Assembly: GCF_002214185.1 (NCBI RefSeq)
Contig: NZ_CP022161.1
Coordinates: forward strand, 3,347,767-3,411,766
From: Streptomyces capitiformicae
GTDB lineage: Bacteria > Actinomycetota > Actinomycetes > Streptomycetales > Streptomycetaceae
Length of the DNA: 64,000 nucleotides
Reading direction: 5' to 3'
Shown: positions 4,318-13,176 of the stretch, in pieces
Layout of the letters: each line of letters begins with the position of its first letter
Position numbering within the stretch: the stretch's first letter is position 1
Translations under genes and position numbers: made by a program
Notes under the pieces: generated by a model
Seen by the model: only the letters and a program-made list of their open reading frames with translations
Databases searched by the model: none
What the model was told of the DNA's origin: nothing

Positions 4318-4337
4318 CCCCCTCTTAAAAGAGGGGG
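4318..4337. repeat. Subterminal hairpin at the tnpB 3' end
   Basis: CCCCCTCTT and AAGAGGGGG form a perfect 9-bp stem around AA, with the tnpB stop codon inside the stem. In IS200/IS605-type elements such imperfect palindromes near the ends are recognised by TnpA, and the right-end transcript supplies the guide (omega) RNA. That role is inferred here. Confidence 0.6.
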
Positions 4338-5626
4338 ATTCCAACCCAGTTGGGTTGAGGTTCACGGGCGCTCGAACGGCTGGTGGCCGCTGTCGCCCCT
4401 CCGGCACCGGCTGTTCGCCGGGGGCGGGGGATCCCGCCCTGTCCTGCCGCGACGTTGGTTGCTGCGTTGGTGTCCGCGTTGCAGGTGAAGCCGCAGGACA
4501 CGCACTCGAAGTCAGCTTGGCTCTTGCGTGACTTCTTCTCGATCCATCCGCAGGCGCTGCACCGCAGGGAGGTGTAGGGGGCGGGAACATCCTCGACCCG
4601 GCCGGGGGCTTTGTGCTCGGTGCGCTGCCGGAGCAGGCCCCAGCCCTGGGCGAGGATCGACCGGTTCAGGCCGGACTTCTGCGCCACGTTCTTGCCGGGC
4701 TGCTCCACGGTTCCCTTCGCGGAGCGGGACATGTTCTTGATGTTCAGCTTCTCGAACCGGACAAGGTCGTAGGAGCGGGCGAGCATGGTGCTGGTCTTCT
4801 CGCACCAGTCCTTACGCCGGTTCGCCTCCCGCGCCTTGAGCTTGGCGACCTTCGCGTACTCGGCCGCCTTCTCCGGGCTGCCCTTCTCGGCTCGTGCTGC
4901 GCGCCGCTCGTGCTTGCGGATCTTCGCCCGCTCTTTGGTGGTGAGATGCGGGCAGTTCGGCGTCCGGCCGTCCGACAGGGCGGCGGTGATCGTGACACCC
5001 CGGTCGATGCCGATCACCTCCCCCGTGCCGGGCGCCGGGGTCGGCTCAGGGATGACGGCGAACGCAATGTGCCACTGCCCGTTGCGAAAGGTGACCCTGA
5101 ACGTCTTCGCGTCGGGCAGCGTCCCACCTTTGCCCTTGGCGCTGAGGCGGAACCGGACCCAGCCGCAGCCGGGCACCTTGACCTGAGCCCACCGCCGGTT
5201 GAGCCTGTGCACGACTACCGACCGGCCCATGACCTGCTTGCCGGTCTTCGCGTTCAGCTTCGGCGACCCGTCCGCGCTGTACTCCGGTACGCGGTCGGTG
5301 CCGATGACCCGGAAGCCTTCATGCTTGTACTTCTTGCGCCAGGTTGGCTCACCAAACCCGGACGTGAAGCGGGCGTTCCTGGCCTTGGCGAAGTCCTTCA
5401 GCGCCTGCTGCTGCACATCCGCGTTCCCCGAGCCCAGCCATTCGTTCTCCCGCCGGGCCTCGGTGAGCTGACGGCACTGCTCCGCGAAACCGGGCGCGCT
5501 CTTGCGCCCCTGGCGCCAGTGCGAGTGCTGCTCGACGGCAAGGTTCCAGACGTACCGGGCGTGCGCGCAGTGCGTGAGCATCTGCTCGGCCTGCGCGGGC
5601 GTCGGATACATCCGGAAACGCGACAT
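4325..5626 (-). CDS. tnpB: TnpB-family RNA-guided nuclease
   Basis: TnpB proteins are RNA-guided DNA nucleases encoded by IS605-type transposons and are ancestors of Cas12. The 433-residue protein shows the full set of family marks: an N-terminal OrfB helix-turn-helix-like part (YPTPAQAEQML, ARYVWNLAVEQ), the first RuvC aspartate in GIDRG, the glutamate in RFEKLNIKNM, a four-cysteine zinc finger (CSACGW and CVSCGF) and the last RuvC aspartate in NADTNAATN. The length is normal to slightly long. All three catalytic acids are present, so it could be active. The C-terminal tail, EPQPNWVGIPLF, is encoded by the element end itself. An overlapping open frame on the + strand is an artefact. Confidence 0.92.
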   Translation of the reverse strand: MSRFRMYPTPAQAEQMLTHCAHARYVWNLAVEQHSHWRQGRKSAPGFAEQCRQLTEARRENEWLGSGNADVQQQALKDFAKARNARFTSGFGEPTWRKKYKHEGFRVIGTDRVPEYSADGSPKLNAKTGKQVMGRSVVVHRLNRRWAQVKVPGCGWVRFRLSAKGKGGTLPDAKTFRVTFRNGQWHIAFAVIPEPTPAPGTGEVIGIDRGVTITAALSDGRTPNCPHLTTKERAKIRKHERRAARAEKGSPEKAAEYAKVAKLKAREANRRKDWCEKTSTMLARSYDLVRFEKLNIKNMSRSAKGTVEQPGKNVAQKSGLNRSILAQGWGLLRQRTEHKAPGRVEDVPAPYTSLRCSACGWIEKKSRKSQADFECVSCGFTCNADTNAATNVAAGQGGIPRPRRTAGAGGATAATSRSSAREPQPNWVGIPLF

Positions 5627-5857
5627 GCCACGAAACTAGCCACCCCGCTCCCCTCTCGCGCACGCCTTCGATCAACATCACCCATGAGAGTGACCGGCAC
5701 GCTTTTTGCCTTCCACGGCAACCCCCGACCACAGCACCCTCAACCGCTGGCACCACGAACGGCTCGAGGCCGAACTCACCGCCGTAGCTCCCGAGACGCC
5801 GAATCGCCCCGGCGGCGATTCGGCCTCCCCTGCCCGGCAAGCAAGGCGGAGACTAAG

Positions 5858-6955
5858 GTGACGCCCAGCGCCGACGACCGCGCCGTCACGGTCACTGTCA
5901 CGCCCACGGGAGAACGGACCCCGGCGGGCGAACCCGTACGCGTCACGGCCTCAGGCGGCACCCTCACCTCGGTGACCGTCACCGACACCGAGGGCCACAA
6001 GCTCGCCGGCAAGGTCGCCGCTGACGGCCGGTCATGGGTCTCCGTCCGCAAGGCGGTACCCGGCGCGGCATACGCGGTGACGGCCACGACCCGGACCGAT
6101 GGCGGAACCGCGAAAACCACCGAAGCGGCCTTCACCACGGCTCCGGCGGACAAGGTCAACAAGGTCGACTGGCGACCGGGCACCGGCACCGGCACCGGCA
6201 CCACCGTCGGCGTCGCCCAGCCGATCTCCCTGGTCTTCGACCATCCCGTCAAGAACCGGGCCGAGGTCGAGAAGCAGCTCAGGATCACCACCTCGAACCA
6301 CACCGAGGGTTCCTGGGGCTGGATACGCGACTGGTCGGGCAGGGACCGGGTGGACTGGCGGCCCAAGTCGTACTGGAAGCCCGGGACCAAGGTCACTCTG
6401 AACGCCGAGTTGAACGGCACCGACTCGGGCGCGGCCGGCGGCTGGTTCGTACGCGACTACACGACCACCTTCACCATCGGTGCCCGGCAGATCGTCGAGG
6501 TGGACCTCGACAGGCACCAACTCACGCTCGTCCGCGACGGTGAGACGGTCCGGCGCATACCGGTCTCCGGCGGCACGCCCGGCGGTGACAAGCGCTCCTG
6601 GCGCGGAACCGCCGTGCTCATGGCCAAGGAGGGCACGATCAACATGAACTCCGAGACGGTGGGCCTGGCCGACGCGTACAACAAGATGGTCGACTACTCG
6701 ATGCGGCTGACCTGGTCGGGCATGTACGCGCACGCCGCCCCGTGGAACGCCCGCTGGTTCGGCAACGCCAACCGGAGTTCCGGATGCATAGGCATGAGCG
6801 ACGCGGACGCGGCCTGGTTCTACGGGCAGGTGCGGCCGGGCAACCCGTTCGAGATCACCGGCAAGGACACCAAGGGCGTGGTCGCACCCGGGAACGGATT
6901 CGGCGCGTGGAACCTCTCGTGGACCGAGTGGCAGCAGAAGAGCGCGCTGCGCTGA
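5858..6955 (+). CDS. L,D-transpeptidase (Ig-like plus YkuD domains), export signal missing
   Basis: Family members make 3-3 cross-links in peptidoglycan at the outer face of the membrane. Two Ig-like repeats (about residues 1-190 from GTG 5858) precede a YkuD catalytic domain. The active-site region is visible as HAAPWNARWFGNANRSSGC followed by IGMSDADAAW, with the nucleophile Cys in SSGCIG and the conserved HGAPW-like His. Streptomyces homologues normally start with a lipoprotein signal. Here the frame upstream instead runs into Arg-rich sequence (possible ATG 5684) with no signal peptide. GTG 5858 has a GGCGGAG site but also no signal. The 5' end was probably replaced during the adjacent TnpB rearrangement, so this may be a pseudogene. 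Confidence 0.85.
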   Translation: MTPSADDRAVTVTVTPTGERTPAGEPVRVTASGGTLTSVTVTDTEGHKLAGKVAADGRSWVSVRKAVPGAAYAVTATTRTDGGTAKTTEAAFTTAPADKVNKVDWRPGTGTGTGTTVGVAQPISLVFDHPVKNRAEVEKQLRITTSNHTEGSWGWIRDWSGRDRVDWRPKSYWKPGTKVTLNAELNGTDSGAAGGWFVRDYTTTFTIGARQIVEVDLDRHQLTLVRDGETVRRIPVSGGTPGGDKRSWRGTAVLMAKEGTINMNSETVGLADAYNKMVDYSMRLTWSGMYAHAAPWNARWFGNANRSSGCIGMSDADAAWFYGQVRPGNPFEITGKDTKGVVAPGNGFGAWNLSWTEWQQKSALR

Positions 6956-7046: not shown

Positions 7047-7931
7047 ATGCATATAGACGTCAGGCGTGGGCTCCGTGCCGGAACCGTCGTCGGATCCCTG
7101 CTCGCCGCCCTGCTCCTCATCACCGGGTGCACGTCGACGGACACGAGACGGGCCACGGCCCCGCCCACCGCGAAGGGCCCCGGCGGGAACGGGGGGCTGC
7201 TGGTGGGGGCGCGCTGGTACGTGCAGTGGGTCACCGTCGGCGGGCGGGCGACGACCGCGCCGCCCCGTGCCGCCGCCTGGGTCGAGTTCGGCTACGACAA
7301 CACGACCGAGGGCAGTTACGGATGCACCCCGTTCAAGGCGGCGACCACGGTCACCGAGACAGCGCTCACCGTGGGCGAGAGAACCGAGGGGACAGCCCCG
7401 ACCGGGCGGTGCCCGGCGTCGTATCGAGCCTTCGAGGGGAAGCTGCGGAAGCTCTTCAGCGGGCCGCTCACCATCAACCGGCGCGTCGACAGCCTGACGA
7501 TGGACCTGAAGAACCAGCGGGGCGACTACGTCGCGGTGAAACTGATGCGGCCCGAGGGGCTCTTCGGCTCCCGATGGCGGCTGGACCATCTGGTCGTGTC
7601 CGACACCATCCTGCCGGTCGTCGGCGGCAACGAGGTGTACTACGTCTTCCACCGGAACGGCACGGTCACCGGCAAGGCCGGCTGCAACGACTTCATCGGC
7701 AGGGCCACCTTCGACGGCGACGTCCTCTCGATGTACCGGCTCACCCGGACCACCCACCGGATCTGCTTGAAAGAGCTCATGGACCAGGAGCAGCGTCTGC
7801 TGACGGACGAGAAGAACCCGCGTCGGTTGCGGTACGGCAGCGCCCCCCTGCACCACTCCTTCGAGGCCGTCGACGGCAACAGCCCCGCGGACTACTTCGG
7901 GTACGGCTGGACGGCGATGTCCGACAACTAG
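7047..7931 (+). CDS. META/HslJ-domain lipoprotein
   Basis: This is a 294-residue membrane-anchored lipoprotein of unknown substrate. The signal peptide has an Arg-rich start, a hydrophobic run (VVGSLLAALLLI) and the lipobox LITGC, placing the lipid-bearing Cys near residue 28. The C-terminal half carries the META pattern: GSRWRLDHL, then VTGKAGCNDFIGRA, then THRICLKELMDQEQRLL. The paired Cys in GCN and ICL are typical. META (HslJ-like) domains occur in secreted stress or heat-shock proteins whose biochemistry is unclear. The ATG lacks a clear ribosome site, so a GTG at 7059 is possible. It is flanked by hairpins and looks monocistronic. Confidence 0.75.
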   Translation: MHIDVRRGLRAGTVVGSLLAALLLITGCTSTDTRRATAPPTAKGPGGNGGLLVGARWYVQWVTVGGRATTAPPRAAAWVEFGYDNTTEGSYGCTPFKAATTVTETALTVGERTEGTAPTGRCPASYRAFEGKLRKLFSGPLTINRRVDSLTMDLKNQRGDYVAVKLMRPEGLFGSRWRLDHLVVSDTILPVVGGNEVYYVFHRNGTVTGKAGCNDFIGRATFDGDVLSMYRLTRTTHRICLKELMDQEQRLLTDEKNPRRLRYGSAPLHHSFEAVDGNSPADYFGYGWTAMSDN

Positions 7932-7964: not shown

Positions 7965-8080
7965 GCAGTCGCGGGGATCAGCGCGACTCGTGAAGGCTGT
8001 CTCACGGCGAAATCCTCGGACTAATCTGATCCCCCTGAACAGCCTTTCGAAGGCACGGCGCGTGGAAAAGGTGACGGGTG

Positions 8081-9913
8081 ATGCCGCTGAGGCCCGGTGA
8101 TGTGGAGTCCATAGGCGGATACGCGCTGATCGACCGGCTCGGCAGTGGCGGCATGGGCGTCGTCTATCTGGGCCGTTCGGCCTCGGGACGGCAGGTCGCG
8201 GTCAAGGTCGTGCACCCGCCGTACGCGCAGGACGAGGAGTTCCGGACGCGCTTCAGACAGGAGGTAGCGGCGGCCCGCCGGGTCAGCGGTGCGTTCACGG
8301 CCCCGGTGGTGGACGCCGATCCGGACGCCGAGCAGCCGTGGATGGCGACGCTGTATGTGCCGGGCCGCACCCTGTCGGATGTCGTGGCCGAGGACGGCCC
8401 GCTGAGCGGAGGTGAGTTGCGCACGCTCGCGCTCGGCCTCGTCGAGGCGCTGCGGGACATCCACCAGGCGGGTGTGGTGCACCGTGATCTGAAGCCGAGC
8501 AATGTCCTGATGGCCGAGGACGGGCCCCGCGTCATCGACTTCGGCGTCTCGCACGCCGTCGACAACGAAGCCCTCACCGTGACGGGGCGGTTGATCGGCA
8601 CCCCGCCCTTCATGTCGCCGGAGCAGTTCAGCTCGCCGCGGGAAGTGACCGCTGCGTCGGACGTGTTCTCTCTCGGTTCCCTGCTGGTGTACGCGGCCAC
8701 CGGTACCCGTCCGTTCGACGGAAGCAGTCCGTACCTGACGGGCTATCAGGTGATGTTCGAGGCTCCGGCCCTGGACGGGGTCACCGAACCGCTCCGGAGC
8801 ATCGCCGAACTCTGTCTGGCCAAGGATCCGGCCGGCCGGCCCGCACTTGCCGAACTGCACCGGATGCTTCTGACGCTGCCCGATGCCACCACCCCCGTCG
8901 CGCCGGGAGCGGCCGACTCAGCCCGCCCCAGTCGCCAGGCTTCCGGGACACGCCCTGTCCCCACCGGGGGTGAGGAGCGCGCGGACAGAACCCTGGCCGG
9001 TCACGGACGTCGAGGACGGCGCGTCCTCATCGCCCTCGCCGCGGCCCTGGTCGTCACCGGGCTGAGCATCACGGTGGTGAAGACAGTGCAGACGTCGACG
9101 GGAACCGGGGCGCACCGGAACGACAGTTCCCAGTCGACCACCGCGCCCACCGCGCCTGCCACCGCACCCTCGTCCGTCTCCGCCGCGACAGTGACTCCAC
9201 CGCCGAAGCACGTGCCGTGGGACTACCAGATCGGCGGCGCGTACGCCCTGCCGGACGGCGTCCGGGTAGTCAGTCGCAGCCACGAGGACGCGGCCGCGCC
9301 AGGCGCGTACAACATCTGCAATTTCAACGCCTTCCAGGCACAGGAGAACGCGGAGGGAGACTGGGACTCCGACCTGCTGCTGCGCGACGCCAACGGGGAT
9401 GTGGTCTACGACAAGGACTGGGGCGAGGCGGTCCTGGACATCCGCACGGAGGCAAAGCGGCAGCGCATCGCTTCGAAGGTGAATGTCTGGATCGGCGAGT
9501 GCGCGACCAAGGGTTACAAGGCCGTCGAGCCCGACAACTACGACACGTTCACCCGCTTCCCGGACTACCTCACAGCCGGTCAGGCCACGGCGTTCATGAA
9601 GCTACTGGTGGCGCACGCCCATGCGAAGGGCCTGGCCGTCGCCCAGAAGAACACCCTGGAGCTGGTGTCCGAGCGTGCGTCCGTGGGCCTGGACTTCGCC
9701 GTGGTGGAGGAGTGCGGCAAGTGGAACGAGTGCGACGAGTTCGCCGAAGCGTTCGACAACAGTGTGCTCGTCGTCGAATACACGGCGAAGGGCCATTCGA
9801 CCGCGTGCTCCGGCTGGAGCAGCACACTGAGCATCGTCCGCCGCGACCAGAATGTCGTACCCAAGGGCGTGAACAGCCATCTCCGCGAAACCTGCGGACG
9901 TCGAACCCGCTGA
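8081..9913 (+). CDS. Membrane Ser/Thr protein kinase fused to an extracellular GH114-like domain
   Basis: The N-terminal 270 residues form a complete Hanks-type kinase: P-loop GSGGMG, VAVK lysine, HRDLKPSN catalytic loop, DFG, and the APE-like SPEQF. A Pro/Arg-rich juxtamembrane linker leads to one membrane segment (RVLIALAAALVVTGLSITVV, near residue 306) and a Thr/Ala/Pro stalk. The outside part, from about residue 375, matches the GH114 endo-alpha-1,4-polygalactosaminidase (TM1410-like) fold: WDYQIGGAY, YNICNFNAFQAQ, then DWGEAVLDIR, KGYKAVEPDNYD and FAVVEECGKWNEC. The GH114 family acts on galactosamine-rich polysaccharide. The arrangement suggests a sensor that binds or trims a cell-surface glycan and signals by phosphorylation. 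ATG 8081 follows AAGGTGA; a GTG lies at 8078. Confidence 0.9.
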   Translation: MPLRPGDVESIGGYALIDRLGSGGMGVVYLGRSASGRQVAVKVVHPPYAQDEEFRTRFRQEVAAARRVSGAFTAPVVDADPDAEQPWMATLYVPGRTLSDVVAEDGPLSGGELRTLALGLVEALRDIHQAGVVHRDLKPSNVLMAEDGPRVIDFGVSHAVDNEALTVTGRLIGTPPFMSPEQFSSPREVTAASDVFSLGSLLVYAATGTRPFDGSSPYLTGYQVMFEAPALDGVTEPLRSIAELCLAKDPAGRPALAELHRMLLTLPDATTPVAPGAADSARPSRQASGTRPVPTGGEERADRTLAGHGRRGRRVLIALAAALVVTGLSITVVKTVQTSTGTGAHRNDSSQSTTAPTAPATAPSSVSAATVTPPPKHVPWDYQIGGAYALPDGVRVVSRSHEDAAAPGAYNICNFNAFQAQENAEGDWDSDLLLRDANGDVVYDKDWGEAVLDIRTEAKRQRIASKVNVWIGECATKGYKAVEPDNYDTFTRFPDYLTAGQATAFMKLLVAHAHAKGLAVAQKNTLELVSERASVGLDFAVVEECGKWNECDEFAEAFDNSVLVVEYTAKGHSTACSGWSSTLSIVRRDQNVVPKGVNSHLRETCGRRTR

Positions 9914-11843: not shown

Positions 11844-11939
11844 GTGCACGGCACGATCACGGACCTGCTGGCCGAGGCGGTGCGAACCGGCGATGTGCGG
11901 GACGACATCCCACCCGACGAACTCTCCGGGACCTACTGA
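11844..11939 (+). pseudogene. C-terminal scrap of a TetR-family regulator
   Basis: Thirty-one codons read TITDLLAEAVRTGDVRDDIP then PDELSGTY and a stop. LL-EAVRTGDVRDDVPPDEL is a typical near-C-terminal stretch of TetR ligand domains. The HTH half and most of the ligand domain are gone. The stop lies within seven bases of the tyrosinase gene's stop, so only the regulator's tail survives next to a convergent gene. Confidence 0.6.
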
Positions 11940-12961
11940 TAGGAGTAGCCCAGGACGGTGATGTCCTTGACGGTGTCGGTGGTGAGGCCGCCGGCGGCCG
12001 GGGTCCACCAGGGGTCGAGGCCGGCGTCGGCGCCGGTGACGTCGGGGCCGCCGCTGTGGGTCAGCTGCCACTGGTCCCAGATACGGTCCACGTTGGCGTG
12101 CAGCAGGAAGAAGATCGGGTCGCGCGACGAGGTCATGGGCTGGCTGAGCGTCCCACGGCACCAGTTGTGCACATTGTTGTGGGCGACGATTTCCAAGCCG
12201 TTCGGCTGTACTCCGGCCATCGCTCTTCCGAACGTGAAGGCGGTGTACGTGGGCCGGGCCAGGAGCCCGTCGATGGTCGCCTGGGTCGGCAGACCGCTGG
12301 TCGCGGGAGTCGGCCGGGTGACGCCGCTGGGCTTCCACACCCAGTCGGGGCGGGCGTGGTCGTTGGCGTAGTCCCAGTAGGGAACCGTGACCGCCGGGTC
12401 GACCGAGCGGAGCAGATCCTCGAACTTCAGGCAGTAGGCGCGATGCCAGGGCAGGAAACGCAGGGTGGCGACGGGCCCCATCCCGTGCATCGTGTGGTGC
12501 CGGTGGCTCATGTCCTCGTGGTCGGCCACGAGTTGTTTGTACGCCGGCTTGCCATCGAGCTTACGCAGCACCTCGTTGAACCGGTCCCGCTCGGCGGTGC
12601 TCAACTGCCGGTGGTCCTTGCGTACCCGCTGGGAGGCCCGCACGAGCCTCGCCACCAGGGAGCGGAGATCATGCTCCGTCACCATGGGCGCGGGCATCGG
12701 CGCCGTCCCGGCGACCACGTTCCACCCGGCTTCGCCGAGCCCGGCCGGGGCCATGTGAGCGGCAGGGCCGGCCGCCGTCGGCGCGGGCGGCGGCGTGACC
12801 GGCGCGGCGGGCAGCCCGTCCGTCATCATCCGGTTCAGGCGCAGACCGACCTCCTCGTTGTCGATGAGCTGGCCAGGCTCCCATTCCGAGGCGATCTCGA
12901 ACGCGACCGCGGCAGTGGGGAAGCCTTCTGCCACCGCCGGCGCCACCTTTTTGGGACTCAT
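11933..12961 (-). CDS. Tyrosinase-family copper oxidase
   Basis: Type-3 copper enzymes oxidise phenols to quinones. The 342-residue protein has an N-terminal 90-residue Pro/Ala-rich part with no clear signal peptide, then the tyrosinase core. CuA ligands appear as HRHHTMHG and the very typical FLPWHRAYCLKFED; VPYWDYAN follows; CuB ligands appear in HNNVHNWCRG and DPIFFLLHANVDRIWDQW. It is not the short MelC2 type. There is no melC1 caddie gene adjacent, and the N-terminal extension differs. It may be a polyphenol oxidase delivered by another route. ATG 12961 is preceded by GAGGAG; a GTG at 12979 is possible. Confidence 0.88.
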   Translation of the reverse strand: MSPKKVAPAVAEGFPTAAVAFEIASEWEPGQLIDNEEVGLRLNRMMTDGLPAAPVTPPPAPTAAGPAAHMAPAGLGEAGWNVVAGTAPMPAPMVTEHDLRSLVARLVRASQRVRKDHRQLSTAERDRFNEVLRKLDGKPAYKQLVADHEDMSHRHHTMHGMGPVATLRFLPWHRAYCLKFEDLLRSVDPAVTVPYWDYANDHARPDWVWKPSGVTRPTPATSGLPTQATIDGLLARPTYTAFTFGRAMAGVQPNGLEIVAHNNVHNWCRGTLSQPMTSSRDPIFFLLHANVDRIWDQWQLTHSGGPDVTGADAGLDPWWTPAAGGLTTDTVKDITVLGYSYQ

Positions 12962-13176
12962 ACGCTGTTCACTCCTCACTCCCGGCTACCCACACCTCTT
13001 CCGGTCGGGCCACCCCACCCACTCTGGGCGGAACCCCTCCGGACGGCGACCGCAGCGAGCCGAACGGACCAGCGGGCAGGGCTAGGGCCGCGCAGCCCTG
13101 ATTCCAACTACTCGGTTGACGCACCGGGTTGGGAAGTGATCGGCGACCGAGGCGCTCTCACGGGGGGGAAGAGGAC
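12962..13176. other. Spacer without a recognisable gene
   Basis: Between the tyrosinase start and the lipoprotein remnant I see no coding bias or hairpin of note, only the likely promoter region of the tyrosinase gene. Confidence 0.4.

Follow-up and report, generated by a model that had tools for sequence, protein, structure and literature searches.

A Ser/Thr kinase joined to a GH114-type ectodomain in Streptomyces: a candidate receptor kinase that may have arisen by ectodomain exchange

Can a single bacterial gene join a Ser/Thr kinase to a glycoside hydrolase of the GH114 (alpha-1,4-polygalactosaminidase) type, and what would such a protein do? This question is raised by an open reading frame (ORF) of Streptomyces capitiformicae located at 8081..9913 (+ strand, as are all features of this gene given below) of the window, that is, the whole analysed stretch of 64,000 nucleotides (contig NZ_CP022161.1, positions 3,347,767 to 3,411,766). 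According to the reading frame and a Pfam scan, the gene encodes a kinase-GH114 fusion of 610 residues plus a stop codon. The ORF starts with GTG at 8078 or ATG at 8081, its stop codon ends at 9913, and the 3' end of a Shine-Dalgarno-like sequence, GGAAAAGG (8064..8071, found by direct reading), lies 9 bases upstream of the ATG.

The Pfam scan identified a Pkinase domain (PF00069; 134 bits, cut-off 31.7) in residues 14-259 (8120..8857) and a Glyco_hydro_114 domain (157 bits, curated cut-off 27) in residues 380-592, which belongs to an ectodomain of residues 374-610 (9200..9910) delimited by profile and predicted fold. Between the two lie a variable juxtamembrane linker (residues 266-311; 8876..9013), in which the frequency of the commonest residue averages 0.52, a hydrophobic helix (residues 315-333; 9023..9079), which was the sole clear membrane segment in a hydropathy scan, and a poorly conserved stalk rich in Ser, Thr, Ala and Pro (residues 338-372; 9092..9196). 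Because arginines precede the helix, the positive-inside rule suggests that the kinase is cytoplasmic and the GH114 domain faces outwards. The six ectodomain cysteines, invariant in 121/121 proteins, are consistent with an outside location. A reading of this DNA from its sequence only had proposed a kinase, one membrane helix and a GH114-like ectodomain in one gene, and this arrangement was borne out by the Pfam matches, the hydropathy scan, the predicted fold and its occurrence in many genomes.

A search of 5.8 billion proteins with the ectodomain yielded 144 relatives, and the HRD kinase motif was present in 114 of the 120 that were listed. All named organisms among the matches listed were Streptomyces, and many rows carried no name. 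Five of the six proteins without HRD (P0003, P0004, P0022, P0081 and P0095) start inside the kinase; the sixth, metagenomic P0085 from a 3.6-kb contig, has a solute-binding domain at its start joined to the GH114 domain and may be chimeric. Contigs representing one genome per species contained 29 related loci, namely 18 intact fusions, 10 free-standing relatives and one copy, L003 from another species, in which kinase residues 1-223 are missing. Among 392 sampled Streptomyces genomes, which overlap in species with the former set, 183 had an ectodomain relative at E 1e-20. The 30 loci retrieved from this sample comprised 13 fusions, including that of S. capitiformicae, and 17 free-standing genes; the remaining matches listed were at most 63% identical. 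In two further genomes of the sample, only pieces were found: a broken fusion with its GH114 part in two pieces (G222) and a fragment of 67 residues (G218).

Apart from the S. capitiformicae locus, a family-level search provided 14 loci (13 from other genera and one from Streptomyces), none of which was a fusion. As for convergent kinase fusions, no kinase match was found at any of 20 long-frame GH114 loci (nine from other families and 11 from Streptomyces), which were selected from match lists that hold other long frames too. The architecture is therefore real, recurrent and confined to a narrow clade. Its presence in many other Streptomyces shows that the two-part protein is neither a chance product nor a join made during assembly. 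Among the proteins listed, most are named 'endo alpha-1,4 polygalactosaminidase' by NCBI, and the kinase is thereby hidden. No published description of a kinase-GH114 fusion was found in a literature search restricted to open-licence papers, and the words 'glycoside', 'hydrolase' and 'carbohydrate' are absent from the main text of a 2005 survey of kinase architectures (PMC1262709).

The kinase half fits the Hanks-type Ser/Thr kinase profile; the catalytic residues K42, D136 (the Asp of HRD), N141 and D153 (the Asp of DFG) are present and conserved, and kinase activity is predicted. Judged by its sequence, the kinase sits among AfsK-like kinases. It scored 305 bits with the AfsK model NF053615, below the equivalog cut-off of 1300, and 188 bits with the PASTA kinase model NF033483, below the equivalog cut-off of 450. 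PASTA kinases of the PknB/StkP type also have a kinase inside, one helix and a ligand-binding part outside, but no PASTA domain was among the Pfam matches of the fusion. The kinase domain, linker and membrane helix are common to the fusion and to AfsK-like PQQ-propeller kinases of Streptomyces, whereas the propeller, which in AfsK consists of nine PQQ repeats (PMC1262709), is replaced by the GH114 domain. The genome of S. capitiformicae gave 46 kinase matches, a count that includes the query and both halves of a broken copy. The closest intact paralogue (L086) is 62% identical, and its outside part was judged by eye to be propeller-like. Another kinase (L117, G000:C1:922500-927500) is 70-74% identical to the fusion kinase, is split over two reading frames, has HQD in place of HRD and ends in a tail that looks propeller-like; it is apparently a decayed paralogue.

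The GH114 half was compared with characterized GH114 enzymes. The ectodomain matched Ega3 in phmmer (E 3e-9), and its predicted fold is a (beta/alpha)8 barrel, as in Ega3. Asp485 (9533..9535) aligned with the nucleophile Asp189 of Ega3, Glu543 (9707..9709) with the acid/base Glu247 and Trp447 (9419..9421) with the mobile-loop Trp154, so that modelling and active-site comparison, the check suggested by the sequence-only reading, favoured a GH114 domain with both acids in place. In FsGH114, tyrosines occur where Ega3 has the loop Trp (PMC12054363). At least 120 of 121 proteins retain the loop Trp and both catalytic acids, the nucleophile and acid/base being invariant save for one Asp to Glu change. 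Thus, the profile, the predicted fold, the nucleophile and the acid/base are common to the fusion and the endo-alpha-1,4-galactosaminidases Ega3 and FsGH114, and the loop Trp is shared with Ega3 as well. Unlike these enzymes, the ectodomain is tied to a kinase and has no Tyr next to the Cys of an ICY motif; its own galactosaminidase activity is a prediction.

This Tyr distinguishes the fusions from all unfused GH114 proteins that were checked. Residue 414 (9320..9322 in the window, by row comparison) is Asn in 133, His in three and Tyr in one (P0048) of 137 fusion rows, which combine loci and database proteins and repeat some species. The corresponding residue, the one that comes behind Cys in the ICY motif of unfused proteins, is Tyr in 36/36 free relatives and both sister domains (L017 and L050), in 10/10 canonical Streptomyces GH114 proteins, in 20/20 wider loci and in the Ega3 and Fusarium sequences of the alignment. 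The ICY-motif Tyr is an observation of this analysis rather than a published criterion of the GH114 family, and the passages of PMC12054363 that deal with tyrosines contain no mention of an equivalent of position 414. According to the model, residue 414 falls in the strand formed by residues 37-43 (ectodomain numbering). The strands of such barrels lead toward the active site. This loss of the Tyr, specific to the fusions, hints at a retuning of the domain attached to the kinase.

Unfused relatives and two trees suggest how the two halves came together. The mature portion of a secreted protein of GH114 type would have replaced the extracellular PQQ beta-propeller encoded by an AfsK-like Ser/Thr kinase gene, which retained its kinase, linker and membrane helix. 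Kinase domains 78-86% identical to that of the fusion are encoded at 16 unfused loci of other Streptomyces; 15 of them run on into a helix that is similar by eye, and the remaining one (L137) stops early at a contig edge. PQQ_2 was found in all three of these relatives that were scanned; hence, the PASTA, lectin and binding-protein domains that the sequence-only reading had named as known kinase sensors form a list that omits the propeller of the closest kin. The closest relatives of the ectodomain are free-standing Streptomycetaceae GH114 proteins (41 loci, 56-75% identical), which have a similar EPDNYD-type motif but no kinase and, in those inspected, signal-like or lipobox-like N-termini. 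Two of them, L017 and L050 (73-75% identical), cluster beside the fusions in the ectodomain tree, and they align with the fusions over their mature parts, directly past a signal-like segment. Genome G177 encodes the two parts separately, L133 on one contig and L050 on another. In the ectodomain tree, every fusion lies on one side of one branch (support 20/91). The kinase tree requires three changes, and a single fusion clade was not rejected (p-AU 0.229). One swap event appears to be the simplest reading, though not a proven one.

Selection preserves both halves: the ratio of nonsynonymous to synonymous substitution rates (dN/dS) against 11 relatives was low in the kinase (0.14-0.24) and the ectodomain (0.30-0.45) compared with the juxtamembrane linker (0.25-0.89) and the stalk (0.31-1.14; 10 of 11 pairs computable).

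Taken together, the protein is probably a transmembrane receptor kinase that arose by ectodomain swap and has a sensing role. The ectodomain would bind a polymer that contains alpha-1,4-galactosamine, or fragments of it, the candidates being fungal galactosaminogalactan and bacterial Pel, and may still cleave the polymer, slowly or with changed specificity. Ligand binding would change how the ectodomains pair or which state they adopt; in the cytoplasm, the kinases could then phosphorylate one another and, next, regulators. The plant protein CHRK1 is likewise a receptor kinase whose ectodomain, a chitinase-type domain, derives from a glycoside hydrolase. Little is known about the signals to which Streptomyces receptor kinases respond; here the ectodomain points to a testable ligand class, and a propeller-bearing kinase, a sister domain that stands alone and a residue specific to the fusions offer natural controls. 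This reading, if correct, would give a soil bacterium a route to recognise a fungal or bacterial matrix polymer, with galactosaminogalactan-coated fungi or Pel-coated bacteria being detected by Streptomyces via a receptor kinase.

Clues to the polymer were sought in gene neighbourhoods. A solute-binding-protein gene lies directly downstream in 27 of the 41 free-standing loci (24/38 without repeated species) but at no fusion locus out of 30, of which 12 have 1.5-kb flanks. Nor does any of these 30 carry the further genes described below for the free-standing loci, apart from one permease match at 32% identity. A DeoR-type regulator gene lies upstream in 16 of the 41 free-standing loci. Only about 1.5 kb of flank is spanned by 31 of these loci; among the 10 with long flanks, four (L022-L025) have a permease, a PfkB sugar kinase and a GH4 gene, as assigned by Pfam on examples. 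These four and others among L055-L083 form a candidate operon for use of a galactosaminogalactan-like polymer, and in one of them a second GH114 protein (L024:14666-15523; 183 bits) is encoded downstream of the free-standing one. One GH4 protein tested scored above the cut-off of an alpha-galactosidase model. The best fit of one DeoR protein tested was AgaR, below the cut-off of that model; AgaR is the repressor of N-acetylgalactosamine use. With the alpha-galactosidase and the AgaR-like fit, the uptake loci fit a polymer of galactosamine and galactose, which is the composition of galactosaminogalactan (PMC12054363). Streptomyces walls have been described as containing small amounts of polysaccharides with galactosamine, and S. 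griseus as secreting a galactosaminidase (PMC7229062).

The claim that a galactosamine-rich polysaccharide coats the cell's own surface found no support: PelG of Pel synthesis was not found in the S. capitiformicae genome (the PelG family was matched in 1/14 control genomes). A search of this genome for Agd3 gave no match and was uninformative, the control being silent too. The other GH114 protein of this genome (L001/L118) is canonical and lipoprotein-like. No polysaccharide cluster was recognised near its gene, whose neighbours we take, by eye, to be cobalamin synthase and leucyl aminopeptidase.

Several results weigh against a sensing receptor of this kind. With Asn in place of Tyr at 414, the chemistry could have been lost or altered, and a single origin is left unproven by the trees. 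No conserved neighbour gene indicating a pathway was found at the fusion loci: only one of 19 (L013; L003 counted) matches the window neighbours, in three ORFs 3.5-8 kb downstream, and L009 and L011 share a flank with each other. Gene calls in these flanks came from a simple script, and some of the flanks stop at contig ends. Six of the 10 long-flank free-standing loci are without the permease, PfkB and GH4 uptake genes. Finally, the binding protein of the uptake operon was found in two (G381 and G235) of 13 intact-fusion genomes and is absent from that of S. capitiformicae itself; the search, with these two positives among 15 genomes, also covered G222, with the broken fusion, and G177, with the unfused parts. 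Because of this distribution, gene content indicates that the fusion does not simply control the uptake operon of its free-standing relatives.

How far the receptor retains catalysis is a narrower matter. The kept catalytic dyad favours catalysis, and the loss of an otherwise invariant Tyr favours an altered activity. It is tentatively suggested, at well below even chances, that a glycoside hydrolase was turned into a slowly cleaving glycan receptor, in which occupancy or turnover of the polymer sets the kinase. It is rather unlikely that the protein is chiefly a membrane-anchored enzyme that cuts polymer at the cell surface, with the attached kinase as a regulator or mere anchor. The conservation of Asp, Glu and loop Trp, the purifying selection on the ectodomain and the sugar-uptake genes adjoining many free-standing relatives agree with such an enzyme, yet a lipoprotein or signal anchor would suffice for it, whereas the kinase residues are conserved, the ectodomain evolves faster than the kinase, and the Tyr of unfused proteins has been replaced in nearly all fusion rows. 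A dead or retuned lectin-like receptor, which binds this polymer or another glycan with no turnover, is doubtful. The replacement at 414, within the modelled barrel strand, speaks for it, but an almost invariant nucleophile and acid/base would be unusual in a dead enzyme, and P0048 retains the Tyr. That two genes were joined artificially in assembly or annotation, as the six relatives without HRD, the truncated L003 and the split GH114 part of G222 might suggest, is ruled out for practical purposes by the same in-frame architecture in 18/29 loci and 13/392 genomes and by HRD in 114/120 listed proteins.

Several neighbouring genes of the window were also noted. On the same strand upstream of the fusion gene, a frame with Big_10 and YkuD (L,D-transpeptidase) domains occupies 4613-6955, and a META-domain gene (7047-7931) ends 149 bases 5' of the ATG of the kinase gene; no match to the META gene was found at any of the 29 related loci. 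A tyrosinase-like gene at 11933-12979 scored 104 bits on the MelC2 model, under the cut-off of 450. A gene for a TnpB-family RNA-guided endonuclease lies at 4325-5626 (206 bits, cut-off 100).
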